In this document: positions 22,485 through 35,300 of the stretch, piece by piece
Numbering within the stretch: position 1 is the first letter of the stretch
How the letters are laid out: the number at the start of each line of letters is the position of its first letter
Assembly: GCF_014762765.1 (NCBI RefSeq)
Contig: NZ_JABURH010000113.1
Coordinates: 1-48,083 of the forward strand
Source of the DNA: Alcanivorax sp.
GTDB lineage: Bacteria; Pseudomonadota; Gammaproteobacteria; Pseudomonadales; Alcanivoracaceae
DNA: 48,083 bases
Direction of reading: 5' to 3'
The notes under the pieces: generated by a model
What the model was told of the DNA's origin: nothing
Database searches by the model: none
Seen by the model: the letters and a program-made list of their open reading frames with translations, nothing else
Program-made: the position numbers and the translations under genes

Positions 22485-22931
22485 TCAATGCTCCGCCGGC
22501 TGCAGGCTGATTCGCAGCATCCCCTGACGATCATCGAATAACTGTACATCTACATTGTTGCGATGCTCGCTGGGTAGTACCGCCAGTGGCACAGGCAGCG
22601 ATAGCTGGCTGGGGCCGGGCAGGATGGCCTTGATGTTCCCGGCAACGATGTTGGTCAGTTCGGTGAGTGCGTCGATCACATCTTCTCCGGTCACCGCGTC
22701 ATCTTCCTTCCTGAACATCTGGCCGGCGATCCGCTGGCCCAGGCTTTCGCAGGTGCTGACGGTCACACTACCTTTCCACTTTCCCGAAATCGAAATCTCT
22801 GCGCCATTGTGAATCATCGGGGGCGGGCCGCTCTGGGCACGCACCGGAATTTTCAGGAAATCACTGAGCACATTGGCGCCGATACGGGCAATTTTCTGTG
22901 ACAGTATGGCGGGTTGTGACGACATATCCAT
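22485..22931 (-). CDS. cheX: CheX-family chemotaxis phosphatase
   Basis: 148 residues from ATG 22931 (AAGGTG upstream); a longer frame runs back into cheR. The CheC/CheX/FliY phosphatase motif E-x2-N is present as D-A-L-T-E91-L-T-N94-I-V-A-G-N, here in a single copy as in CheX. Such proteins dephosphorylate CheY-P, replacing CheZ, which is absent from this cluster. It is the last gene of the chemosensory operon, with its start 10 bases after the cheR stop. The assignment rests on this motif, its length and its context. Confidence 0.82.
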   Translation of the reverse strand: MDMSSQPAILSQKIARIGANVLSDFLKIPVRAQSGPPPMIHNGAEISISGKWKGSVTVSTCESLGQRIAGQMFRKEDDAVTGEDVIDALTELTNIVAGNIKAILPGPSQLSLPVPLAVLPSEHRNNVDVQLFDDRQGMLRISLQPAEH

Positions 22932-22941
22932 GTGAGCACCT

Positions 22942-23766
22942 TCAAGCGGGTTGGTAAAAAGGGCGATGACTTCCGGGAATGGCCGGGACAAAGCCAGCGG
23001 ATTTTTCCAGGCTTTCGGTGGAGCCAAGCAGCAGGTAACCGTCATTGGCGGTATGTTTGCGCACTCGGCCCAGTACCCGCTGGCGGTCCTCCATGGAAAA
23101 GTACAACAGCACATTGCGCAGCAGTACGATGTCGAACACGGGCAGGTTGTCCGGCCATTCCCGGACCAGGTTGATTTTCTGAAAGCTGATTCGCTCGCGA
23201 ATTGCCGGTTTGACCTGCCAGTCCAGGCCCTGCTGTTCGAAATAGAGCGCCATGTTGCGGGCGGGCAACCCCCGGTTCATCTCGTTCAGGCCGTAACAGC
23301 CCTGTTGCGCTTTGTTCAGTGCGGACTGGGAGAAATCGCTGGCGACCAGGGTGACCTCCCAGTCTTTCAATTGCGGGAAGTGTTGGTCCAGCAGCATGGC
23401 CACGCTATAGGCTTCCTGACCAGTGCTGCAGGCAGCGCTCCAGATGCGCAAGGTTTTGTCGCGCCGTCGCTTTTCAAGCAGGGAAGGGACCATGGTGTCC
23501 AGAAAGCTCTGGCTGAGAATCGGGTCGCGGAAAAAATAGGTTTCGTTGATTGCCATGGCTTCCACCAGCTCCGTCCGCAGTGCATCGTCAGCGACAGTGG
23601 AGGCTTTTTCGATCAGCGCATTGATGTCGCCATGGGTGTGTTGTTTGGCTAGGTTCTGCAACCGGGCCTCGGCCAGATACACTTTATCCGGCGGCAAGCT
23701 GAGCGCGATCTGGTCACAGAGGAGGTTGCACAGGGTTAAGTAGCTGTGTTCGTTGATACAGCTCAT
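22942..23766 (-). CDS. cheR: Chemotaxis protein methyltransferase CheR
   Basis: 274 residues: N-terminal helical CheR domain (about 1-75) and SAM-binding domain with I-W-S-A-A-C-S-T-G-Q-E-A-Y-S-V-A-M and the conserved A-I-N-E-T-Y-F-F-R-D segment. It methylates glutamates of the receptor signalling domain with S-adenosylmethionine. Its ATG overlaps the cheB stop by four bases (ATGA), indicating translational coupling. No C-terminal tethering extension is present. Confidence 0.93.
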   Translation of the reverse strand: MSCINEHSYLTLCNLLCDQIALSLPPDKVYLAEARLQNLAKQHTHGDINALIEKASTVADDALRTELVEAMAINETYFFRDPILSQSFLDTMVPSLLEKRRRDKTLRIWSAACSTGQEAYSVAMLLDQHFPQLKDWEVTLVASDFSQSALNKAQQGCYGLNEMNRGLPARNMALYFEQQGLDWQVKPAIRERISFQKINLVREWPDNLPVFDIVLLRNVLLYFSMEDRQRVLGRVRKHTANDGYLLLGSTESLEKSAGFVPAIPGSHRPFYQPA

Positions 23767-24878
23767 CCGTGTACCTCGGGATTCATGGCGGCTCGCTGTC
23801 GTGCACGAAACGTGGGTCGGCCCCGGTTAACCCGTCGCATAATCTCCGCAGCCATGTCTTGCAACGGAAGCTCCGCGCAGGCGAGGCCGGCTCGTGATAC
23901 GACCCCAGGCATGCCCCATACCGCGCTGGTGGGTTGGTCCTGTACCAGTATTTGTGCGCCGGCCTTGGCCAGTTGGCGACAGCCTTCCAGGCCATCCTGG
24001 CCCATACCGGTCAACACCACGGCCAGCACATTGGGACCATAGGCTTTGGCTGCACTGGCAAACAGAATATCCACGGCGGGTCGGCAGAAGTTCACCGGCT
24101 CGCTGCGCTGGGGAGCGACCAGGGTGTGGTCACCAACCTTATCCACGGTCATGTGATAGTCACCGGCGGCCAGCCAGACCTGACCCGGTTCGGCACGTTG
24201 GCTACTGTCGCATTCAGCCACGCATAACGATGCGTTCTGGTCCAGGCGTGTGGCCAGGGCGCGGGTAAACACCGCCGGCATGTGCTGCACCACCAGAATT
24301 GGAACCGGGAAATCACCGGGCAGGGCCGGGATCAGTTGACCCAAGGCTCGTGGCCCGCCCATGGAGGCGCCAATTACCACCAGATCCACCCGCGATGGAA
24401 TGCGGTGATGCTGGAGCTGTGATGCTACGGGACGGGGGCGAGGTGTCGGTGTTACTGATGGTTTGCTGTCCCGTCGCAACAGGGTTTTGATTTTTCCCAG
24501 CAGGCTGTTCTTGATGTAGTCACGGGCTTCTGCGGCAGTGCCCACCATGGCGGGTTTGGGCACATAGTCGCTGGCGCCCAGCGACAGGGCCTCGATGGTT
24601 ACCATGGCGCCGCGCTCGGTAATGGAGCTGAACACCAGCACCGGCAGTTCCGGGCGGCTTACCTTCAGCTCCTTGAGCATTTCCAGTCCGCCCATACCGG
24701 GCATTTCCACATCCAGGATTAGCAGATCCGCTTCTACCCGCTGCAGACGATCGAGGCCCTGTCGTCCATCGGAAGCTGTGCCCACCACAACGATGTCAGG
24801 ATCTTCTTCCAGAATCTGGGTGAGGATATGCCGCACTGCGGCAGTATCATCCACTAGAAAGACACGAATGTTACTCAT
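23763..24878 (-). CDS. cheB: Chemotaxis response regulator protein-glutamate methylesterase CheB
   Basis: 371 residues: receiver domain with phospho-acceptor Asp56 (L-L-I-L-D-V-E-M-P) and Lys108, a proline-rich linker near 138-150, and the methylesterase domain with the Ser172 (G-A-S-M-G-G-P), His199 (V-Q-H-M-P), Asp295 (T-G-M-G-Q-D-G) triad. It removes receptor methyl groups and gives adaptation together with CheR. Start overlaps the upstream cheY stop by four bases. Confidence 0.95.
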   Translation of the reverse strand: MSNIRVFLVDDTAAVRHILTQILEEDPDIVVVGTASDGRQGLDRLQRVEADLLILDVEMPGMGGLEMLKELKVSRPELPVLVFSSITERGAMVTIEALSLGASDYVPKPAMVGTAAEARDYIKNSLLGKIKTLLRRDSKPSVTPTPRPRPVASQLQHHRIPSRVDLVVIGASMGGPRALGQLIPALPGDFPVPILVVQHMPAVFTRALATRLDQNASLCVAECDSSQRAEPGQVWLAAGDYHMTVDKVGDHTLVAPQRSEPVNFCRPAVDILFASAAKAYGPNVLAVVLTGMGQDGLEGCRQLAKAGAQILVQDQPTSAVWGMPGVVSRAGLACAELPLQDMAAEIMRRVNRGRPTFRARQRAAMNPEVHG

Positions 24879-25267
24879 GCTCTCTCTGCTCTCTGCAGCC
24901 CCATCATTTCCAGCTTGCAGGCAAGGGCCTCAGAGGAAAACGGTTTCATCAGGTATTCATCGGCGCCGGCGGTCAGGGCTTCCACCATCTGGCCCACTTC
25001 CGCTTCACTGGTAACCACCAGTAATTTCATATCGCTATAGCAATGCTTCTGTCGCACCGCGCGGATAAATTCCAGGCCATTCATGACCGGCATGTTCCAG
25101 TCCACCAGGGCCAGAGTGGGGATGGTGTCATCCCCCTCCAAGAGGGTGATGGCCTGCTGGCCATCACCGGCTTCGGTAGTTTCATAACCCAACTGCTGAA
25201 GCAGGTCGCCCAGGATCAGGCGCATGGCCCGGGAGTCATCAATGACCAGTGCTTGTGTGGTAGCCAT
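24875..25267 (-). CDS. cheY: CheY-like response regulator
   Basis: 130-residue stand-alone receiver: acidic pair V-I-D-D-S (9-12), phospho-acceptor Asp56 (A-L-V-D-W-N-M-P), switch Thr86 and Lys108. It takes phosphate from CheA and is likely the output or a phosphate sink. It follows the receptor gene by 15 bases and is coupled to cheB. One of two CheY-like proteins in this operon. Confidence 0.93.
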   Translation of the reverse strand: MATTQALVIDDSRAMRLILGDLLQQLGYETTEAGDGQQAITLLEGDDTIPTLALVDWNMPVMNGLEFIRAVRQKHCYSDMKLLVVTSEAEVGQMVEALTAGADEYLMKPFSSEALACKLEMMGLQRAERA

Positions 25268-25282
25268 GATTTTGGTCCCTCA

Positions 25283-26485
25283 TTATTTCTGGTTGTCCGC
25301 GCGTCCGGTGCGCTCTGCATCCACCACCAGGGTCTGCAGGTCTGCGGCCAGTTTGGCCAGATCGGTGGCTGCCTGACGCATGCTGTCCACACCGGCATTG
25401 GTGCTTTTCGCCGCTTCGGCAACGCCACCGATATTACCGGCTACTTCGTTGGTGCCCTTGGCGGCGTCGGCGACACGACGGCCCATTTCGTTAGTGGTAA
25501 TGGTCTGTTCTTCCACCGCGGAGGCAATGGAGCCCTGAACCTGGCTGATATGGTGAATTACCTCACTGATACGGGCGATGCCTTCGATGGCGCCTTTCAC
25601 ATCCACCTGGATGGCCTCGATCTTCTGGCCGATGTCCTCGGTGGCGCGGCCGGTTTCTTTGGCCAGTTCCTTCACTTCATTGGCGACCACGGCAAAGCCT
25701 CGACCGGCATCCCCGGCGCGGGCAGCTTCAATGGTGGCATTGAGTGCCAGCAGGTTGGTTTGCTGGGCAATGCCGGTAATCACCTTGATCACTTTGCCAA
25801 TCTCCGCGCTGCTGGTGCCCAGGCTGCTGATGGTGGTGTTGGTACCTTCGGCAATGCTCACAGCCTCGTCGGCCACGCGGGCGGCGTCGGTAGCGTTCTT
25901 GGCAATTTCCTTGATGCTGGCACCCATTTCCTCGATACCGCTGGATACTGCCTGCACGTTTTCATTGATGTCTTCGGCGGTGCGGACTGCGGAATTTGCC
26001 TGGCTACTGGTAACGCCGGCGTTGGAGCCCATCTGGTCACTGGTGGCAATCATTTCCTCGGAGGAGGTGGCCAGCACTTCCACGGTGCCGCGAATACGCT
26101 CTTCCAGAAGCACTTTCTCGGTGATGATTTCCCAGGTGAGCATGGGGCCCACATAGTTACCTTCCGCGTCGTAGATCGCGTTTACCAGCAGGTCGGCTTT
26201 CTCGTCACCAATATTGATACGTGCGCGATAAGGCAGGTTGGTGGGATCGGACAGAATGCGGCGCTGGTGTTCTGGCTGTTTGTGGAAAACATCAATGTTG
26301 GCGCCCAGTAGTTCGCTTGCCTTGATGGGCAGGTAGGATTCCAGCTTTTCCATAGTGGCCGTGGCGGCCGGATTCAGATAGATGATTTTCAGATCCCGGT
26401 CACAGAGGAAAACATTGGTGGGCATCTGGTCCACCATGTTCATCACACGCCGGAATTCGTTCTCCTGGCGCAGCTCTGTGGTCAC
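25283..26485 (-). CDS. PAS/methyl-accepting chemotaxis protein, C-terminal part of interrupted globin chemoreceptor
   Basis: The frame is open from 26524, directly after the TAG at 26527-26525, and continues the same reading frame as the globin-PAS gene. If translated separately the first usable codon is GTG 26485, but GGGAAG lies only two bases from it, which is poor spacing. That product would lack the last strands of the first PAS domain ([13 protein letters not shown]). It contains a complete second PAS domain and a methyl-accepting signalling domain whose tip includes [15 protein letters not shown] and [11 protein letters not shown]. There is no transmembrane segment, so the receptor is cytoplasmic. 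It is the only receptor of the operon. Confidence 0.8.
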
Positions 26486-26524
26486 GTCTTCCCAGCAAAC
26501 GGTGTAGCCGATGATTTTTTCTTC

Positions 26525-26527
26525 CTA
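26525..26527 (-). other. In-frame amber codon splitting the globin chemoreceptor
   Basis: A single TAG separates two open stretches of 258 and 413 codons in one frame. The flanking residues (I-N-A-V-I-S * E-E-K-I-I-G-Y) align with the equivalent part of the second PAS domain ([13 protein letters not shown]). One base change, for example CAG to TAG, would account for it. Confidence 0.85.
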
Positions 26528-27301
26528 GCTAATCACCGCATTGATGCGGGTGCGCAGGGTCACGCCACCGAAGTTGAAGTCGGCAGAGTGGGGCATGGCC
26601 TTGGGGTCACGGAGAATGGTTTCCACCCGTTTCGGGTCGCGGTGAAAGCGGTGAATATGGCCGTTGAGGATATCCTCGATCTTGACCCCGAAGGTCTTGA
26701 AGATTGGTTGTGCAATGGTCGACAGGGTTTCTGCAGCACGTGGGTTGATGTAGACGATGTTGAGATTGGTATCAGCGACAAACACGTTGGCTTGCAAGCT
26801 GGCCATGGTGCTTTTTACGCCTTCCAGGCTGTCTGTGACGGACTTGCTGGTGTCCACATCGCGAAGGGCGTTGTCGTTATGGGTCGGCTGGCTGCTGCCG
26901 TTGGTTGTGTCTGTGGCGTTTTCGTTCACGATGTCCCCCTTCAATGGCGCAACGGTATTCATGATGGTATCGACGTGGTCAGACTCCACACCCAGAGACT
27001 CCAATGTCTCTTTCAGGTGAACGGCTACCCGGTCGAAGTTTCTGGCGGTGATATGCAGGTTCTTGTGGGCATCGGCCATGGACGGACCTTGATAAATCTT
27101 CGGCCCGCCCAGGGCCTGGGTGAAGAACTGCACTTGGGATTCTTCCAGGCCTTTGCGTTGTTTGTGGCGGAAGTAAGGGGCCAGAGCCTGGTCTTCCAGC
27201 ACCCGGTTGTAAAACTCGGTTACCACGGCTCGGACAGCGGCTTCGCCACCTACCTGGCTATAGAGAGAGTTGTCGTTTGCGTGATCCAGATTATCTGTCA
27301 T
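26525..27301 (-). CDS. Truncated haemoglobin-PAS N-terminal part of interrupted chemoreceptor
   Basis: 258 residues ending in TAG. Residues about 12-127 are a 2/2 (group I truncated) haemoglobin domain: L-Y-S-Q-V-G-G opening, Tyr31 at the distal B10 position (E-F-Y-N-R-V-L) and proximal His79 in M-A-D-A-H-K-N-L-H-I. After a linker (128-160) a PAS domain starts (A-N-V-F-V-A-D-T-N-L-N-I-V-Y-I-N-P). The stop falls inside the last PAS strand and the reading frame continues to the methyl-accepting domain, so gene and protein are broken by a single codon. A haem-bound O2, NO or CO signal to CheA is the expected role. Ribosome site GGGGAT. A truncated globin fused to a receptor is rare; classic globin sensors such as HemAT use the 3/3 fold. 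Confidence 0.82.
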   Translation of the reverse strand: MTDNLDHANDNSLYSQVGGEAAVRAVVTEFYNRVLEDQALAPYFRHKQRKGLEESQVQFFTQALGGPKIYQGPSMADAHKNLHITARNFDRVAVHLKETLESLGVESDHVDTIMNTVAPLKGDIVNENATDTTNGSSQPTHNDNALRDVDTSKSVTDSLEGVKSTMASLQANVFVADTNLNIVYINPRAAETLSTIAQPIFKTFGVKIEDILNGHIHRFHRDPKRVETILRDPKAMPHSADFNFGGVTLRTRINAVIS

Positions 27302-27327
27302 TGCTGTCTATCCCCGTGTTGTCCTTG

Positions 27328-27801
27328 TTATTGCAATACTGAGTGTGACGCGCGACTGGCTGAGCGGCTGCACAGTTCGTCCGCCAGCAGGGTGTCCAGG
27401 TCCAGTAACAGATAAAGCGTGCCCTGGACCGGGAAAACGCCGCGCATGAATTTTCGTGGTGCCCCCTTGAGTGTTTCCGGTGGTGGTTCGATCTCTTCTG
27501 GCTGCACGCTGACAATGTCACCAATGCGGTCCACCATCAGCCCCACCTGTTCGCCACCGTGATTGATGACGATGTTGATGGTGTCTTCTTCGTCGCTTTC
27601 GCCGGGTAACCGCAGCACCTTGCGCAGGGCGATGGCCGGCACGATACGTCCGCGGATATTCATCAGCCCGAGTACTCCGGGAGGTGCCAGCGGAATATCG
27701 GTAATCTGGTGGTTGGCGAGCACTTCCTGAACATTGTCGACCACCACGCCGTAGTGCTTTCCCGCAACGGAAAACGTGCAGATCAGTTGTTTAGTTTCCA
27801 T
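27328..27801 (-). CDS. cheW: Chemotaxis adaptor CheW
   Basis: 157 residues from ATG 27801 (GAGGACAGC upstream). Single CheW fold with the conserved L-G-L-M-N-I-R-G-R-I-V-P-A-I-A-L-R centre and G-L-M-V-D-R-I-G-D-I-V. It couples the receptor to CheA. The start overlaps the cheA stop by 11 bases. A short tail after the domain is rich in serine and arginine and has no evident function. Confidence 0.92.
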   Translation of the reverse strand: METKQLICTFSVAGKHYGVVVDNVQEVLANHQITDIPLAPPGVLGLMNIRGRIVPAIALRKVLRLPGESDEEDTINIVINHGGEQVGLMVDRIGDIVSVQPEEIEPPPETLKGAPRKFMRGVFPVQGTLYLLLDLDTLLADELCSRSASRASHSVLQ

Positions 27802-30022
27802 TGCTGTCCTCACTTCTTTGCTTGCCATGGAAGCGGCTGAACAAGGCTTCACAATCGATAAAGTCCGTCACATGGCCTTGCAGGATGCCAGCGCCAAGGA
27901 TGCCTTCGGTCTGGGCGCTTTGTTGTATGGCAGCTTCGTCGTCACTGACGATATCGATGATGTCGTTGACCACCAGGCCCACTTCGCCGAAGTCGGTGGG
28001 TTGCACCACAATGCGGATAATCTCTTGGTCAGCCGGAGTGCTACGGTTGGCGTCGCCAAGACGAATCAGCGGCAGAATGCCACCCCGATACTGAATCACT
28101 TCCCGGCCGGCGGAGTATTCGATCAGATCGGTACTGATTTCCTCCAGGCGTGACACTCTCGACAGGGCGATGGCGGAGCGGCCAGTGCTGCCATCCGGGC
28201 GTACCAGCAGGTAGCTCTCGGCGGCGCGAATGGGTTGGGTTTCTGCGTCTAGCGGGTTTTCCAGCTGGCGCAGTTTGCGCTCGTGGCGGGTAACACCCGC
28301 AAAGTCGGCCGTGGACTTAACATCCAGAATCAACGCTACCCGGCCATCGCCCATGATGGTGGCGCCGGCAAAACAGGGGTTGTCCTTGAGGAGTCTACCC
28401 AGGGGTTTGACCACGATTTCTTCCGTATCGCGAACGTCATCCACCAGCAGCCCGAATTCCTGCTGGTCGGCGGTGAGCACCAGAATGAACTGATCTTTAT
28501 GGGTTTCCTTGTCGCCCATCTGCATCAGAGAGCGCATGTCGACCAGTGGCAGCAATCTGCCCCGAAGCCGATAGACCAGGGCATCGTGGACTGTCTCGAT
28601 ATCCTTTTCGAGACGGTCGGCCTCCACGTAGACCACTTCCATCAGGTTGACCTGGGGAATGGCGAAACGCTGATGCAGGCAACGCACGATCAAAGCAGGG
28701 ACAATGGCGAGGGTGAGCGGGATTTTCAGTTTCAGTGTGGTGCCACGGCCGGGGATGCTCTTGATATCAATGGAGCCGCCGATGCGCTCCACATTGGTTC
28801 GCACCACATCCAGGCCCACGCCGCGGCCTGACAGATCGCTGACAGTGTCCGCAGTGGAGAACCCGGGTTCGAATATATAGCGGATCTTTTCCTGTTCGGT
28901 GAGCTGTTCCGCCTGCTCTGGCCGTACCAGCCCGGCTTCCATGGCACGCCGGATAATTTTGTCACTGTCCAGCCCCGCGCCATCGTCGCTGACTTCCACG
29001 GTGACGTTGCCGCTTTCGTGATAGGCACTCATGGTCAGGGTGCCGGTTTCCGGTTTGCCTCTGGCGCGGCGATGTTCCGGCGTCTCGATGCCATGATCGA
29101 CCGCGTTGCGAACCAGGTGAATGAGCGGGTCGCGAATGGCTTCGAGCAGACTGCGATCCAGTTCTGTGTCCCCGCCCCTGAGTACCGGAGTTACCCGTTT
29201 GCCGGTTTTTCTTTCCAGATCCAGAAGCAGGCGAGGGTAGGTGGACCAGGCATTTCGAATGGGCTGCATGCGGGTCTGCATCAGCCCTTCCTGCAGCTCA
29301 CTGGTGACCATGTTGAGACGCTGGGACAAGTTGACCAGTTGAGCGTCGTTCTGGCTGGCGGTGTGCTGCAGTAGCTGGTTGCGGGTGAGCACCAGTTCGC
29401 CTACCACATTCATCAACTTGTCCAGCAGCACCACATCCACGCGTACGGTGGTGTCGCTCTTTCCTGTCTGCTGTGGGGTGGTGTTTTCCTGCTCTGTTTT
29501 TTCCGGTGAGGAGCCGTCGCTCACCGGCATGACATCTTGCTCGCTGGTTGTCGCCGGTTCTGCTGGCTCAGGCTTTGTCGGTTCAGGGGTTTCCTGTGCG
29601 ATTTGAGGTGAGCTGGTGGCAGCGTCATTTTGCGTACGGGAGGGGATCAATGCATGTAACCGGTCAATCAAGGCCTGTGGTGCCGGCTCACCGTCTTTAC
29701 CATCATTGTGGATACGCTTGAGGAAAACACGGATTTCATCCACCCCGTCAAGCAGCGCGGTGGCATGTGGCAGGTCCATGTGCTGATCTCCGTCGCGCAT
29801 GGCGCCGAGGATATCTTCCAGGGCATGGCTCAGGGTTTCCAGCTGTGTGAAGCCGAAAAATCCGCAGGTGCCCTTGATGGTATGGATTGCCCGGAAGGCG
29901 CTGGCAATACGTTCACTGTCCTGCGGTGAGCGTTCCAGCGCCACAATGTCCTGTTCCAGTTGCCCCAGATTTTCATCACTTTCGATCAGAAAACTTTGCA
30001 GTGCCTTGTCGTTTTCCTGCAT
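27791..30022 (-). CDS. cheA: Chemotaxis histidine kinase CheA with two CheW-like domains
   Basis: 743 residues from ATG 30022 (GGGGAG upstream; an ATG nine codons earlier is less well placed). P1 phosphotransfer domain with His47 (R-A-I-H-T-I-K-G-T), a Pro/Glu/Thr linker, P3 dimerisation helices from about 195, P4 ATPase with R-N-A-V-D-H-G, D-D-G-A-G-L-D and G-R-G-V-G-L-D-V-V boxes, then a P5 CheW-like domain. A second CheW-like domain follows (about 610-735: S-Y-L-L-V-R-P..G-L-V-V-N-D-I-I-D-I-V), which ordinary CheA lacks. No P2 domain is obvious. The extra domain may build a different array lattice. Confidence 0.93.
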   Translation of the reverse strand: MQENDKALQSFLIESDENLGQLEQDIVALERSPQDSERIASAFRAIHTIKGTCGFFGFTQLETLSHALEDILGAMRDGDQHMDLPHATALLDGVDEIRVFLKRIHNDGKDGEPAPQALIDRLHALIPSRTQNDAATSSPQIAQETPEPTKPEPAEPATTSEQDVMPVSDGSSPEKTEQENTTPQQTGKSDTTVRVDVVLLDKLMNVVGELVLTRNQLLQHTASQNDAQLVNLSQRLNMVTSELQEGLMQTRMQPIRNAWSTYPRLLLDLERKTGKRVTPVLRGGDTELDRSLLEAIRDPLIHLVRNAVDHGIETPEHRRARGKPETGTLTMSAYHESGNVTVEVSDDGAGLDSDKIIRRAMEAGLVRPEQAEQLTEQEKIRYIFEPGFSTADTVSDLSGRGVGLDVVRTNVERIGGSIDIKSIPGRGTTLKLKIPLTLAIVPALIVRCLHQRFAIPQVNLMEVVYVEADRLEKDIETVHDALVYRLRGRLLPLVDMRSLMQMGDKETHKDQFILVLTADQQEFGLLVDDVRDTEEIVVKPLGRLLKDNPCFAGATIMGDGRVALILDVKSTADFAGVTRHERKLRQLENPLDAETQPIRAAESYLLVRPDGSTGRSAIALSRVSRLEEISTDLIEYSAGREVIQYRGGILPLIRLGDANRSTPADQEIIRIVVQPTDFGEVGLVVNDIIDIVSDDEAAIQQSAQTEGILGAGILQGHVTDFIDCEALFSRFHGKQRSEDSNGN

Positions 30023-30077
30023 TGGGCCTTCTCCCCTTGAACCTGTCATGCATTGTTATTGGTATCGACGTTGCTGT

Positions 30078-30473
30078 TCAGCCGGCGGCGAGTTTGCGCA
30101 ATGAAGCCAGTCGTAAGATGGAACGCAGATCAGCGTCATGCGGGGGTTTGACAAGATAGTTGTCGCACCCGGCCTGACGACCGGCCAGATGAGCTTCTGC
30201 GGAGGTCTTGCTGGAGAGCATTGCAATGCGAGCCGGGCTGCCTTTCTGGCGCAGAGCGCTGCAGGCCTCGAGGCCCCCCATGACTGGCATTTCCACATCA
30301 AGGAAGATCAGATCAAAGGGACGTTTTTCGGCGCATGCCAGTGCCTGGCTGCCATCGGCAGCCTGGACAATGTCCAGTTCATAGCTGCCGGTTGCCAGTT
30401 CGTGCAATTTGGCGGTGATAAGGCTTCGTATGGCGGTGCTGTCGTCCACCACCAGGATGTTGAGTCTGTCCAT
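30078..30473 (-). CDS. CheY-like response regulator, first gene of chemosensory operon
   Basis: 131 residues from ATG 30473 (GGGAAGGG upstream; an ATG at 30503 would add ten residues). Receiver fold with V-V-D-D-S (8-12), Asp59 (L-I-F-L-D-V-E-M-P), Ser-Ser at 87-88 and Lys109. The distal switch residue region and extra length differ from the second CheY, so the two probably have different outputs. It lies 55 bases upstream of cheA. Confidence 0.9.
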   Translation of the reverse strand: MDRLNILVVDDSTAIRSLITAKLHELATGSYELDIVQAADGSQALACAEKRPFDLIFLDVEMPVMGGLEACSALRQKGSPARIAMLSSKTSAEAHLAGRQAGCDNYLVKPPHDADLRSILRLASLRKLAAG

Positions 30474-30816
30474 GACCCTTCCCTGTGTCGCTGCTACTTC
30501 CATTACGTTCCCCGGATCTCGGTTGAGATCTGTGAAGCAGCGTATGCCGCTTCCCCCATTAGAGAAGGCGCAACTATTTTTATATGTGCAGATAAGGAAA
30601 ACGAAAGAGGTTGAGGACGAACGGTGTTGTTTTGTCGATGTTCGCCAATTACCCGATCAGTGTCTTTTTTTCCAAATCTGCTTCACAAAAATTGTCATGC
30701 CTATGTTGGTGCTATAAGTACCATGGTTCGATTCACGCAAGCTTCACGCAGGGGACAGACGAAAATTGAGGAGCGACGAACGGGCGTCGGTAAGGGGATG
30801 TGGAAGGGGGGAGAAA
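30474..30816. other. Non-coding region between chemosensory and RND operons
   Basis: About 340 bases upstream of the chemosensory operon. No sigma28 (TAAA-N15-GCCGATAA) promoter was found, which argues against co-regulation with flagella. A TATAAA at 30577-30582 (minus strand) could be a -10, with a poor -35. No gene or repeat seen. Confidence 0.4.
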
Positions 30817-30861: not shown

Positions 30862-33800
30862 TCAATGGGCCGTTTTTTCTTTTGGCTTGCCATTCAGCGG
30901 AACGCCGGCGAGCTTGCGTACCACCACATAGAATAGCGGAATAAAGAAAATCGCCAGCACCGTCGCGGTGAGCATGCCCCCGAATACCCCCGTACCGATG
31001 GCGTTACGGGCGCCGGCGCCGGCGCCAGTGCTGATCATCAGCGGGGTAACCCCGAGCATGAAGGCCAGTGAGGTCATCAGGATGGGGCGTAGCCTCATGC
31101 GTACCGCTTCCAGGGTGGCCTTGACCAGGTGCTCGCCTTTCTGCTCCAACTCCAGGGCAAATTCTGCAATCAGAATGGCGTTCTTTGCTGAAAGCCCGAT
31201 GGTGGTGAGCAGGCCGACCTGGAAGAACACATCGTTCTCCAACCCGCGGAAGGTGGCAGCCAGTACGGCACCGATCACGCCGAGCGGTACCACCAGCATT
31301 ACCGCGAAGGGAATGGACCAGCTCTCGTAGAGCGCTGCCAGGCAAAGGAATACCACCAGCAGGGAAATCGCATACAGGGCCGGTGCCTGATCTCCGGACT
31401 GGCGTTCCTGATAGGACAGGCCGGTCCATTCGGAGCCGAACCCGGCTGGCAACTTGGCGGTAAGTTCCTCCATGGCATCCATGGCGTCGCCGGTACTGTA
31501 GCCTGGTGCCGCGTTGCCCTGGATGTTCACCGAGGAAACGCCGTTGTAACGCTCCAGTTTGGGTGAGCCGTAGGTCCAGTGGCCGGTGGCAAAGGCGGAG
31601 AATGGCACCATTTCGCCCTGGTTGTTGCGCACATACCAGTCATCAATGTTTTCCGGCAGCATGCGATAGGGGGCGTCAGCCTGTACATACACCCGTTTTA
31701 CCCGGCCCCGGTCGACAAAGTTGTTCACATAGCTCGAGCCCCAGGCAATCTGCAGGGTGCTGTTGATATCGCTGATGCTGAGCCCCAGCGCCTTGGCTTT
31801 CTGTTGGTCAATATCCAGTTGATATTGTGGGCTGTCTTCCAGTCCGTTGGGACGTACCCCGGCCAGGCGAGGGTCCTGGCTGGCCATGCCCAGTAACTGG
31901 TTACGGGCCTGTATCAGTGCCTCGTGACCGCGACCGGCCTGGTCCAGCAGCTGAAAATCGAAGCCACTGGCGTTACCCAGTTCAGGGATCGAAGGCGGGT
32001 TGAGGGCAAAGATCATGGCTTCACGAATGCTGGCAAAGAAGCCCATGGAGCGGCCCACTACCTGGTTGACGCCATCCGTTTCCAGGTTCCGTTCGGACCA
32101 GTCCTTCAGGTTGATGAACGCCAGCCCGGCATTCTGGCCCTGGCCGGTAAAACTGAAACCAGCCACGGTGAACAGGCCATCAACGGCGGAGGTCTCCTCG
32201 TTGAGATAGTAATTCTCCATCTTCTTCAGCACGTCCACGGTCTGCTCCTGGGTGGAGCCGGCCGGCAGTGTGACCAGGGTAAACATCATGCCCTGATCCT
32301 CTTCCGGCAAGAAGCTGGAAGGCAGGCGCATGAAGGAAAAGCCCAGCACACCGACAATCACCACATAGATCAACAGATAGCGGCCACGATGGCCCAGGAT
32401 TTTTTCCACCCGACCCTGGTAGGCCAGGCTGCTGCGATCAAAGGTGCGGTTAAACCAGCCGAAGAAACCCTTGTTGGTCTGGTGCTCTGCATCCTTGGCC
32501 TTGAGCATGGTGGCACACAACGCCGGGGTGAGGATCAGGGCAACCAGCACGGACAGCACCATGGCGGACACAATGGTGATCGAGAACTGCCGGTAAATCG
32601 CCCCGGTGGAGCCGGGGAAGAATGCCATGGGGATAAATACCGCTGACAGTACCAGGGCAATACCCACCAGGGCACCGGTGATCTGGCCCATGGATTTACG
32701 GGTGGCTTCCTTGGGGGGCAGGCCTTCTTCGTGCATAACCCGTTCCACGTTCTCCACCACCACGATGGCATCGTCCACCAGCAGACCAATAGCCAGCACC
32801 ATGCCGAACATGGTCAGGGTGTTAATGGAGAAGCCGAAGGCGGCCAGCACACCGAAGGTGCCGAGCAGGACCACCGGCACCGCGATGGTGGGAATCAGGG
32901 TGGCGCGGAAGTTTTGCAGGAACAGGTACATCACCAGGAACACCAGCACGATGGCTTCGAACAGGGTATGTACCACTTCCTCGATGGAGATCTCCACGAA
33001 CGGAGTGGTGTCGTAGGGATAATCCATTTCCATCTTGTCGGGGAAGAAAGGCTTCAATTCTTCCAGGCGGGCGCGCACCGCATCAGCGGTGTCCAGCGCG
33101 TTGGCGCCGGAGGCCAGGCTGATGGCCAGGCCGGCGGCAGGCTGGCCGTTATAGCGTCCCACCACGTCATAGTTCTGGGCTGCCAGTTCCACCCGCGCCA
33201 CATCCCGCAGGAACACCTGGGAGCCATCCGGATTTACCTTGAGCAGGATGTTCTGAAACTGCTCGGTATCTTCCAATCGAGTCTGGGCGATGATGTTGGC
33301 ATTGAGCTGCTGGCCTTCCACCGCCGGGGCGCCACCGAGCTGACCACTGGCGACCTGGTTGTTCTGTACCTGAATCGTCTGGGTGATGTCCTGAGGCGTC
33401 AGATCGTACTTGTTGAGCTTGTTGGGATCGAGCCAGATGCGCATGGCGTAGGGGGAGCCGAACAGCTGGATCTTGCCGACACCGGGTACCCGGCTGATCG
33501 GATCCTGCACATTGGAGGCCACATAGTCCGCCAGGTCGGCCCGGCTGAGGCTGCCGTCCTCGGAGGAAAATGACACCACCATCAGAAACGAATCCGAGGA
33601 TTTGCTGACCTGCAGACCCTGCTGCTGTACTTCCTGGGGCAGTAGTGGGGTAGCCAGTTGCAACTTGTTCTGCACCTGCACCTGGGCGATATCCGCGTCG
33701 GTACCCGGGGCGAACGTCAGCGTGATCTGGGCGTTGCCAAAGGAGTCGCTGCTGGAGCCGATGTAGAGCAGGTTATCGATGCCCGTCATCTGCTGCTCAA

Positions 33801-33993
33801 TCACCTGGGTGACCGAATCTTCCACGGTCTTTGCCGAGGCGCCGGGATAGTTACCGGCAATGGTCACCGCTGGCGGGGCCACTGCCGGGTACTGTTCCAC
33901 CGGCAGGGTATAAATAGCCAGGGCACCGGCCATCATCATGATGATGGCAATAACCCAGGCAAAAATCGGGCGGTCAATAAAGAATCTGGCCAT
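30862..33993 (-). CDS. HAE-1 family RND efflux pump, inner-membrane transporter (AcrB/MexB/TtgB-like)
   Basis: 1043 residues, the standard length. Begins [14 protein letters not shown], with twelve membrane helices and two large periplasmic loops. The proton-relay aspartates are seen in [13 protein letters not shown], and the second-half motif [14 protein letters not shown] is intact. It exports hydrophobic compounds, detergents, solvents or antibiotics by proton antiport as a trimer. Its adaptor is encoded 27 bases upstream; no outer-membrane channel gene follows, so a TolC/OprM-type channel must come from elsewhere. Which named system it equals cannot be told. Confidence 0.95.
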
Positions 33994-34020
33994 GGTATTC
34001 CCGTTTCTCGTTACGTCGCG

Positions 34021-35217
34021 TTATTGCGCTGAGCGTTGATCCCCGCCTTGAGTGGCGGGGGCCTGGGAGGCTTGAGCCTGCTGTTGGGTATCCACGGGGC
34101 TAACCGGAATGCCGGGCTGGATTTTTTGCAGCCCATCCACGATCAACCGGTCTCCGTGTTCCAGGCCGCTGGCGATCAGCCACTGACTACCCACGGCCCG
34201 TTCGGTGACCACGTTCACCTTCTTCACCATATTGTTCTCGTCGATGAGCATGGCGCTGGCCTGGCCGGTGGGGTCACGGGTAATGCCTTTCTGGGGAACC
34301 AGAATGGCATCTTCGCGCTGGCCCTCGGGCAAGCGACCGCGGACAAACATGCCCGGTAGCAGATCACCATCCGGGTTGGGGAAGAGGGCGCGCAGGGTCA
34401 CCGAGCCGGTGCTTTCGTCCACTGCGTATTCGGAGAATTGCAGGGCGCCGGCCTTGCTGTACTCGCTGCCGTCTTCCAGGATCAGGGTAATGCGTGCTTC
34501 ATCATCGCTGACCTGCTGCAATTCGCCGGCTTCCATGGCCTGGCGCAGACGACGCAGCTCAATGCTGGACTGGGTCAGGTCCACGTAAATGGGGTCCAGC
34601 TGGCGGATGGTGGCCAGGGCGTTGGCCTGGTTGGCGGTGACCAGGGCGCCGGCCGTGACGGTGGAGCGCCCGATGCGGCCGCTGATCGGCGCCTCAATGG
34701 TGGCGTAGTCCAGGTTGATCTGCGCGCTTTTCAGGTTGGCGCGGGCGGCGGCCACCGCGGCCTTGTTCTCGTCCAGGGCCGCTTTGGCTTCGTCATATTC
34801 CTGTTGGCTCACGGAGCGGCGTTCCAGCAGGGTCTTGAAGCGATCCACGCGCAGGGTGTTGGAGTTCAGGGTGGCCTGGGCCCGGGCCAGCTCCGCCCGT
34901 GCAGAGTCCACGGCAGCCTGGTAGGTCCGGGAGTCGATCTTGTAGAGAGGTTGCCCGGCTTCCACCTTCTGGCCTTCTTCGAACAGGCGCTGTTCGATCA
35001 CGCCGCTTACCTGCGGGCGCACTTCGGCAATCTGGTGAGCGGTGGTGCGCCCGGGCAGCTCCCGGCTGAGGGTGGTGGATTGAGCCTTTACCGTAATGAA
35101 GCCAACCTGCGGCGCCTGTTGCTGCTGTTGCTGTCCGGCCTGGTCGCCGTCACTGCAACCGCCGAGCTGCAGGGCAAGGGCGCCTGCCAGGAAGGAGAGA
35201 ATCAAACCGCTGCGCAT
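34021..35217 (-). CDS. RND efflux periplasmic adaptor subunit (AcrA/MexA-like lipoprotein)
   Basis: 398 residues from ATG 35217 (AGAGGTG upstream; the GTG two codons earlier lies within the ribosome site). A lipoprotein signal ends in L-G-G-C. The order is barrel-sandwich, alpha-hairpin with Q-A-A-V-D-S-A-R-A-E-L-A-R-A-Q and D-E-N-K-A-A-V-A-A-A-R-A-N-L heptads, lipoyl half motif D-Y-A-T-I-E-A-P-I-S-G-R-I-G-R-S, and beta-barrel. A run of six glutamines sits just after the acylated N-terminus, and the C-terminal tail is rich in Gln/Ala. It bridges the pump and the outer-membrane channel. Divergent from a TetR repressor. Confidence 0.95.
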   Translation of the reverse strand: MRSGLILSFLAGALALQLGGCSDGDQAGQQQQQQAPQVGFITVKAQSTTLSRELPGRTTAHQIAEVRPQVSGVIEQRLFEEGQKVEAGQPLYKIDSRTYQAAVDSARAELARAQATLNSNTLRVDRFKTLLERRSVSQQEYDEAKAALDENKAAVAAARANLKSAQINLDYATIEAPISGRIGRSTVTAGALVTANQANALATIRQLDPIYVDLTQSSIELRRLRQAMEAGELQQVSDDEARITLILEDGSEYSKAGALQFSEYAVDESTGSVTLRALFPNPDGDLLPGMFVRGRLPEGQREDAILVPQKGITRDPTGQASAMLIDENNMVKKVNVVTERAVGSQWLIASGLEHGDRLIVDGLQKIQPGIPVSPVDTQQQAQASQAPATQGGDQRSAQ

Positions 35218-35300
35218 AATCACCTCTAGTTTTAATACACGCCGTCAGGCACCGGCTCGGTGAGCGGGCGCTGCTTGCAGGAAATATGAATCAGGTTCAG

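Follow-up and report, generated by a model that had tools for sequence, protein, structure and literature searches.

Chemoreceptors that join a truncated globin, a PAS domain and a methyl-accepting chemotaxis protein (MCP) signalling domain were reported in 2018 by Sharma, Parales and Singer, whose main text gives the combination Bac_globin, PAS and MCPsignal for seven proteins among 8,075 genomes and proposes oxygen sensing for the receptor of Corallococcus coralloides (PMC6194562). A review of 2026 cites this report of globin-PAS-MCP proteins and describes the Aer2 receptors, whose haem-binding PAS domains number one in Pseudomonas aeruginosa, two in Vibrio cholerae and three in Vibrio vulnificus (PMC13401364). 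Here, a receptor with a truncated globin, two PAS domains and an MCP domain is described from Alcanivorax, where its gene is interrupted by a single in-frame TAG. It lies on a stretch of 48,083 nucleotides (the window), the whole of contig C63 of a draft Alcanivorax assembly (3.52 Mb in 211 contigs, 93.7% complete, 1.9% contamination), and the sequences nearest to the window are those of Alcanivorax. With a probability of about 0.8, we take this to be a chemoreceptor of the genus with a globin, two haem PAS domains and an MCP domain, whose copy in the window carries a very recent nonsense codon or an error of the consensus. The name Alcanivorax does not occur in the main text of the 2018 paper, the part considered here to the exclusion of its supplements (PMC6194562), and the literature searched, judged from listings, held neither a paper on the Alcanivorax receptor nor an experimental test of such receptors. 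The Alcanivorax protein is thus a further member of a receptor type that is already predicted and, as far as found, so far untested. A preliminary description of the window had called the globin type unusual for a chemoreceptor; that this makes the receptor new is not borne out, given the 2018 report and more such proteins in Planctomycetota.

The receptor is read on the minus strand from 27301 to 25283 as one frame of 673 codons, comprising 671 residues, one internal TAG and the terminal TAA. The TAG, codon 259 at positions 26527-26525, is the sole break in this frame. The preliminary description had reported as much and had seen no frameshift or deletion; translation and comparison within the genus agree, the latter ruling out a frameshift or deletion in the window gene. 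Relatives were sought in 17 genomes of the genus (G000-G016, with G000 the window's own), and the receptor is present in 11 of them, G000 included. In eight congeners (G001-G004 and G008-G011; identity 83-99%) it is complete and unbroken, so the frame is more than chance, and Bac_globin, PAS and MCP, which the TAG splits in the window, stand there in one protein. The receptor of G012 is found as two contig-end pieces without a stop, and that of G006 (L013, G006:C1:1163332-1165346) has a one-base deletion causing a frameshift near codon 224 in PAS1, some 35 codons before the TAG site.

Among the 11 genus genomes with the receptor, the TAG at codon 259 is confined to that of the window. The ten others all have a sense codon there, for Ser, Thr, Ala, Gly or Glu, and the serine codon of the nearest relative, G001, is one base away from TAG. 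As five different residues occupy this position in the congeners, the TAG is a private, derived change, which is what the comparison of orthologous loci, a check named in the preliminary description, has yielded. Gln as the ancestral residue is ruled out by the relatives' codons, and Q is used here solely for reading through the TAG. A structure model was made of the intact globin-PAS-PAS part of G001 (mean pLDDT 76, pTM 0.39; the domains are usable, their arrangement is not). It places residue 259 in the turn (Hbeta-Ibeta) between PAS1 strands 247-257 and 263-272, a turn that is variable to judge by the aligned sequences, and the stop would, on this model, cut off the last strand of PAS1 together with Trp270. 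Open frames also run antisense to the receptor gene on the plus strand (25043-26311, 422 aa; 26588-27415, 275 aa), and in G001 the receptor is overlain in full by one antisense frame, 720 codons long and with lower conservation (88%); these look like shadow frames.

The globin is recognized by Pfam over residues 12-125. Its best matches among solved structures are Mycobacterium tuberculosis HbN and other group I entries, and in the alignment with HbN, Tyr31 (TyrB10) and His79 (proximal) fall on its corresponding Tyr and His. These two residues are kept in 7/7 rows of the genus and in 11 of 12 aligned rows overall. In Pfam the domain matches PF01152 only and does not qualify as a 3/3 sensor (protoglobin) domain. 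It is, by sequence, a group I truncated globin of the HbN kind, predicted to bind haem and O2. The preliminary description had proposed a truncated globin with exactly this His and Tyr and a profile search for group I as the check, and both came out in its favour, with PF01152 as the match and HbN as the nearest structure.

Its two PAS domains and soluble MCP domain stand as well. The MCP domain is matched by PF00015, and both PAS domains fall below the Pfam cut-off (PAS2 reaches 20.3 of 21.8 bits as PAS_8, and none is listed for open reading frame (ORF) 1), being shown instead by NCBIfam, solved structures and the model. PAS2 matches structures from V. cholerae (6ceq) and P. aeruginosa (4hi4), and PAS1 of the intact relative matches 3vol (9.5e-11) and also 4hi4. 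His220 and His340 are found in 12/12 aligned rows and align to the fhk motif of Aer2, while Trp270 and Trp390 are each found in 11/12 rows. We take this Trp of the last PAS strand to have a role in the haem PAS domains of Aer2; W283 of Aer2 was sought in the literature and not found. A Foldseek search with the model returned two-PAS or larger proteins (DosP, NifL-NifA) as its first seven matches, followed at ranks 8, 9 and 12 by 3vol, 6ceq and 4hi4, which cover whole domains with TM (target) of 0.80-0.84 (0.84 for 6ceq), and from rank 29 on by HbN. H234 is the residue that holds the haem in P. aeruginosa Aer2, and each of the three PAS domains of V. vulnificus Aer2 binds haem (PMC13401364). 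Both PAS domains of the Alcanivorax receptor thus appear to be of the Aer2 haem type, with the haem histidine kept, and would be expected to bind haem, so that the intact receptor could carry three haems per protein. The best NCBIfam match is the Aer2 family NF041847, at 231.3 bits against an equivalog cut-off of 1200, and HAMP gave no Pfam match at E 0.001 in the two receptor pieces; by NCBIfam the receptor is not an Aer2 orthologue.

The age of the stop can be judged from the substitutions around it. With G001, G006 and A. jadensis as the comparison, the receptor has gained 25 synonymous changes, two amino-acid changes (G108D and I110V) and one stop on the window branch; counted by codon position, with a further outgroup added, 22 private changes fall in the window gene, 19 of them at third positions. 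Between the window and G001, residues 260-672 show no nonsynonymous divergence (dN 0) at a synonymous divergence (dS) of 0.18. If about three nonsynonymous changes are expected per synonymous change under neutrality, a ratio that is assumed rather than computed, the two observed (95% upper bound 6.3) mean that, by the 25:2 pattern, the gene has been free of constraint for at most about 9% of the window branch. As read from these substitutions, the gene has been under purifying selection in the past, and the earlier statement that both halves look under selection is supported up to and along the window branch. Such a low nonsynonymous count would be seen equally if the mutation is very recent, if the consensus is in error or if the pieces are still in use. 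The seven other che genes have 16 nonsynonymous and 79 synonymous changes on the window branch, with 35 and 81 on that of G001 (overlapping gene ends are counted twice), and the che system is not visibly relaxed on the window branch by this count.

Decay was also sought in other genes. Of 44 frames of G001, 39 had a match in the window and six showed a stop there, five of these at 76-88% identity with the look of shadow frames and the sixth in a frame that starts upstream of the window's gene; the receptor frame of G001 was outside this set, displaced by the longer antisense frame. Judged by these G001 frames, the 48-kb contig showed no further broken gene. For the 36 listed genes of the window, the sole stop in G001 falls in the start region of one gene, and of the same 36 in G006 only the receptor is whole but for a frameshift. 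G006 also has a stop in DAHP synthase, lacks most of fadB, has a binding-protein gene cut at its end and shows three stops in cheX, all upstream of the likely cheX start.

The preliminary description offered a nonsense mutation, a sequencing error, readthrough or suppression and a pair of proteins as options. That was the right set, and comparison narrows it, in that the TAG occurs in 1/11 genomes; readthrough or recoding has no support from the tRNAs read or from the use of TAG in the window. Of the readings of the stop, a recent null allele has about one chance in two and an error of the consensus about one in three, which makes these the likeliest. An artefact of sequencing, assembly or strain mixture, with a sense codon in the true sequence and an intact receptor, would be a variant of the same account with the same biology. 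It is a doubtful but quite possible reading, favoured by the many contigs and the contamination of the draft assembly, by the single substitution that separates the TAG from the nearest relative's sense codon and by the lack of decay elsewhere in the receptor gene; that no second broken gene came to light on the contig argues against frequent errors but would leave room for a single one. The opposite extreme, a long-dead pseudogene, has the stop itself on its side and the dispensability of the system, given that 6/17 genus genomes lack both the receptor and its CheA. It is refuted by the ratio of synonymous to nonsynonymous changes, the gene has no indels and the cluster is otherwise open, so that this idea, hardly credible, is rejected. 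Reading of UAG as an amino acid, by suppression, readthrough or recoding, would agree with a frame that stays open for 413 codons beyond the TAG. None of the ten other genus genomes has a stop at codon 259, TAG ends 3 of the 36 listed window genes, an Rfam scan of the window gave no match, and no CTA anticodon occurs among the 33 tRNA genes read by ARAGORN from 35 RF00005 matches in the assembly, an incomplete set (no tRNA-Asp was read, and two contig-end matches gave no gene). With a sense codon in the relatives, TAG as a normal terminator and no CTA tRNA in the incomplete set read, recoding of UAG is unlikely, to the point that we reject it.

The two halves might also be made as two proteins, a globin-PAS1 fragment and a PAS2-MCP fragment arising by restart, with the che system running on PAS2 alone or on reassembled halves. 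PAS2 is complete, its frame with the MCP domain is open from the GTG at 26485 and has dN 0 against G001, restart sites exist at codons 273, 286 and 293, and in V. vulnificus Aer2 it is the last PAS domain that relays the signal (PMC13401364); the breaks in G006 and in the planctomycete G606 likewise part the globin from PAS2-MCP. Set against this, a recent lesion would account equally well for the constancy of the protein, the receptor is unsplit in eight congeners, and the cut falls inside PAS1, with loss of its last strand and Trp270, rather than in a linker. The restart sites are also badly spaced. GTG 273 (26485) pairs at -4.2 kcal and 3 nt, GTG 286 (26446) at -6.9 and 14 nt, and ATG 293 (26425) at -4.9 and 4 nt, whereas the native start has Shine-Dalgarno pairing of -5.7 kcal at 9 nt; among the starts scored after the TAG, none joins good Shine-Dalgarno pairing with the usual spacing. 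We consider a two-protein receptor improbable. Several observations nonetheless weigh against a recent null allele or consensus error. Restart sites do exist, three of them with pairing close to that of the native start; the incomplete tRNA set makes the missing suppressor weak evidence; apart from the TAG the receptor is undamaged, and no relaxation is seen elsewhere in the cluster on this branch, which fits a tolerated split too; and two further receptors, those of G006 and G606, are broken between globin and PAS2, so that interruption is perhaps commoner than chance. In all, 3/16 such receptors (11 from the genus and five from Planctomycetota) are interrupted between globin and PAS2, and PAS2-MCP stays open in each. 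The three breaks share no position, and that of G606 spares PAS1 too. Recurrent lesions might uncouple the globin while a restart-made haem-PAS2-MCP protein keeps the che system running under selection, as a trimmed sensor or as two chains. This is a long shot, and the 3/16 is a pattern for testing rather than a finding, coming as it does from few cases and partly from draft genomes.

With up to three haems, the intact soluble receptor would most likely be a sensor of O2 (or of some other diatomic gas) that controls the CheA of its own cluster by an in-line conformational change. Read normally, the window gene would give a globin with a broken PAS1 and no signalling domain. The system would then be uncoupled from globin and PAS1, and probably from all input, unless restart makes a PAS2-MCP receptor, which is a possible product. 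The idling of the che system that the preliminary description foresaw on loss of the receptor is plausible, and its claim that this is the only receptor of a complete che operon is borne out by Pfam matches for all che genes and by a single MCP. One other MCPsignal match exists in the assembly, at the end of contig C159, which also has a kinase match in a 2385-aa frame, from its length presumably of the PilL/ChpA type.

The cluster consists of cheY1, cheA and cheW upstream of the receptor and cheY2, cheB, cheR and cheX downstream (Table 1), an order read in the window and in seven genus loci (L033-L039 with L070), with G004 and G008 left out. CheA of the receptor's type, at 1174 bits or more, is found in exactly the same 11/17 genus genomes as the receptor, and the best other hit among the matches listed for 57 relatives reaches 346 bits. 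FliM was found in 0/11 genus genomes searched (G000-G010, nine of them with the receptor; G011 and G012 lay outside the search) and in 3/4 other genomes of the order. Both this absence and the Aer2 haem type of the PAS domains had been missed by the preliminary description. As the 11 genus genomes checked lack FliM, taxis by flagella is unlikely, and the system probably has a non-flagellar output, be it pili or another. An RND gene lies upstream of cheY1 in 7/7 genus loci that cover this side, at about 0.4 kb (1.6 kb in L039). In another genus of the family, a contig that starts inside the receptor (L097, G022:C258) carries its MCP end (76% identical) and, behind it, cheY-cheB-cheR-cheX with identities of about 45%.

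Table 1. Features of the receptor locus in the window
Feature	Positions	Strand	Basis
Receptor reading frame, truncated globin-PAS1-PAS2-MCP, 673 codons, one interruption	25283..27301	-	Translation and comparison with relatives
In-frame TAG at codon 259, within the turn that joins the two final strands of PAS1	26525..26527	-	Translation, relatives, structure model
ORF 1, 258 aa: globin and PAS1 minus its last strand	26525..27301	-	ORF list
ORF 2, 400 aa from GTG: PAS2 and MCP, possible restart product; other starts 26446, 26443, 26437, 26434, 26425	25283..26485	-	ORF list
Group I truncated globin domain, residues 12-130	26912..27268	-	PF01152 5.3e-26; 1idr HbN 1.5e-22; model of relative against 1idr, TM (target) 0.81
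PAS1, Aer2-type haem PAS (predicted); haem His220, Trp270 beyond the TAG	26462..26821	-	Intact relative aligned to 3vol and 4hi4; model
PAS2, Aer2-type haem PAS (predicted); His340, Trp390	26102..26455	-	6ceq 3e-20; 4hi4 9e-16
MCP signalling domain	25406..25897	-	PF00015
Response regulator cheY1	30078..30503	-	PF00072
cheA	27791..30049	-	Hpt, H-kinase_dim, HATPase_c, CheW
cheW	27328..27852	-	PF01584
Response regulator cheY2	24875..25267	-	PF00072
cheB	23763..24878	-	PF01339, PF00072
cheR	22942..23766	-	PF01739
cheX; true start probably nearer 22931	22485..23114	-	PF13690; in G006 the frame starts where 22931 aligns
RND pump and membrane-fusion protein, upstream of the cluster, same direction	30862..35223	-	Linkage of the RND gene in 7/7 loci

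The stop probably amounts to no more than a common null allele or an error. The interest lies in the intact gene, the only receptor of a che system of its own in a genus without FliM as far as checked, and one that seems to bring together three haems from two classes of fold, a truncated globin and two haem PAS domains. The receptor is intact in a named strain, A. jadensis T9, in which both the globin-PAS oxygen-sensing prediction of 2018 and the working of a chemosensory system without flagella could be examined.

Outside the genus, distant relatives of the PAS-MCP part occur mainly in Planctomycetota, Acidobacteria and Verrucomicrobia. Clustered che genes in a similar order often surround them, and many distant loci, those of Nitrospina included, show no che genes nearby. 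No globin was found in the proteins of 49/50 distant loci (L085 was left out). The surveys for globin-bearing receptors sampled 369, 392 and 398 genomes and cover the matches listed or above threshold, so that a receptor not seen in them counts for little, and they may or may not include the organisms of the 2018 paper. Among 392 Planctomycetota genomes, five clusters with receptors of this kind were found. L173 and L175 encode truncated globin-PAS-MCP (cheA is not on the L173 contig), and L176 encodes truncated globin-PAS, cut by the contig end before the MCP domain is reached. The receptor of L178 (L178:5444-7705, G431) is truncated globin-GAF-PAS-MCP, its globin having an odd stretch in place of the proximal His and TyrB10. 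In the che cluster of L174 (L174:5811-7851, G606), the globin is encoded in one frame, open well past the end of its domain, and PAS1-PAS2-MCP in another, through a frameshift or an assembly error.

The eight long globin frames read among the matches listed for Gammaproteobacteria were single or tandem globins, one of them behind a coiled-coil-like part, with no receptor fusion seen. A truncated globin on the C-terminal side of a membrane-anchored, coiled-coil-like protein, judged by eye, is encoded at L123:811-1953 (G361). Among the listed gammaproteobacterial matches, those of 21-25% that span globin and PAS in long frames had no globin at 1e-8 where fetched (G193, G216, G253, G256 and G356 were left out). 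In Acidobacteria (the phylum of L072, 297 genomes) the longest globin frames have 383 and 611 aa, the latter without a PAS or MCP match. Six long globin frames fetched from 398 Pseudomonadota genomes had PAS or MCP in 0/6 cases. One of them is a CheA of 983 aa (L220:399-3347:-, G1121:C13) with a truncated globin (PF01152, 7.7e-10) between Hpt and H-kinase_dim, in the order Hpt, globin, H-kinase_dim, HATPase, CheW and receiver. In a tree of 99 globin domains the receptor globins cluster and are not resolved as one clade, the window's globin (L195) having been left unlabelled, which raises the change count.

The closest described systems can now be set beside the Alcanivorax locus. Cc_4972 of C. 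coralloides (the Cc-5 system), like the six other proteins reported with it, has a truncated globin, PAS and MCP in one soluble receptor, and its order CheA-CheW-MCP-...-CheB-CheR is met in the window cluster; in Alcanivorax the place between receptor and cheB, filled by ABC1 and ABM genes in C. coralloides, is taken by a cheY, and a cheX follows (PMC6194562). The planctomycete receptors of L173, L175, L178, L176 and L174 share the globin, the Aer2-type PAS, the MCP domain (not reached in L176) and a similar che cluster, but they have one or two PAS domains, add GAF in L178 and are only 33-44% identical in the globin, and in L175 no cheY is seen between receptor and cheB, unlike in Alcanivorax. 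Aer2 receptors feed the same haem-type PAS domains into an MCP domain, from which the Alcanivorax protein is set apart by its extra truncated globin, the lack of a HAMP match and a score of 231 of 1200 bits. The globin of HemAT has the 3/3 sensor fold. HemAT-type globin-coupled sensors, too, place an N-terminal globin on a soluble MCP, but the globin of Alcanivorax is a group I truncated one (PF01152).

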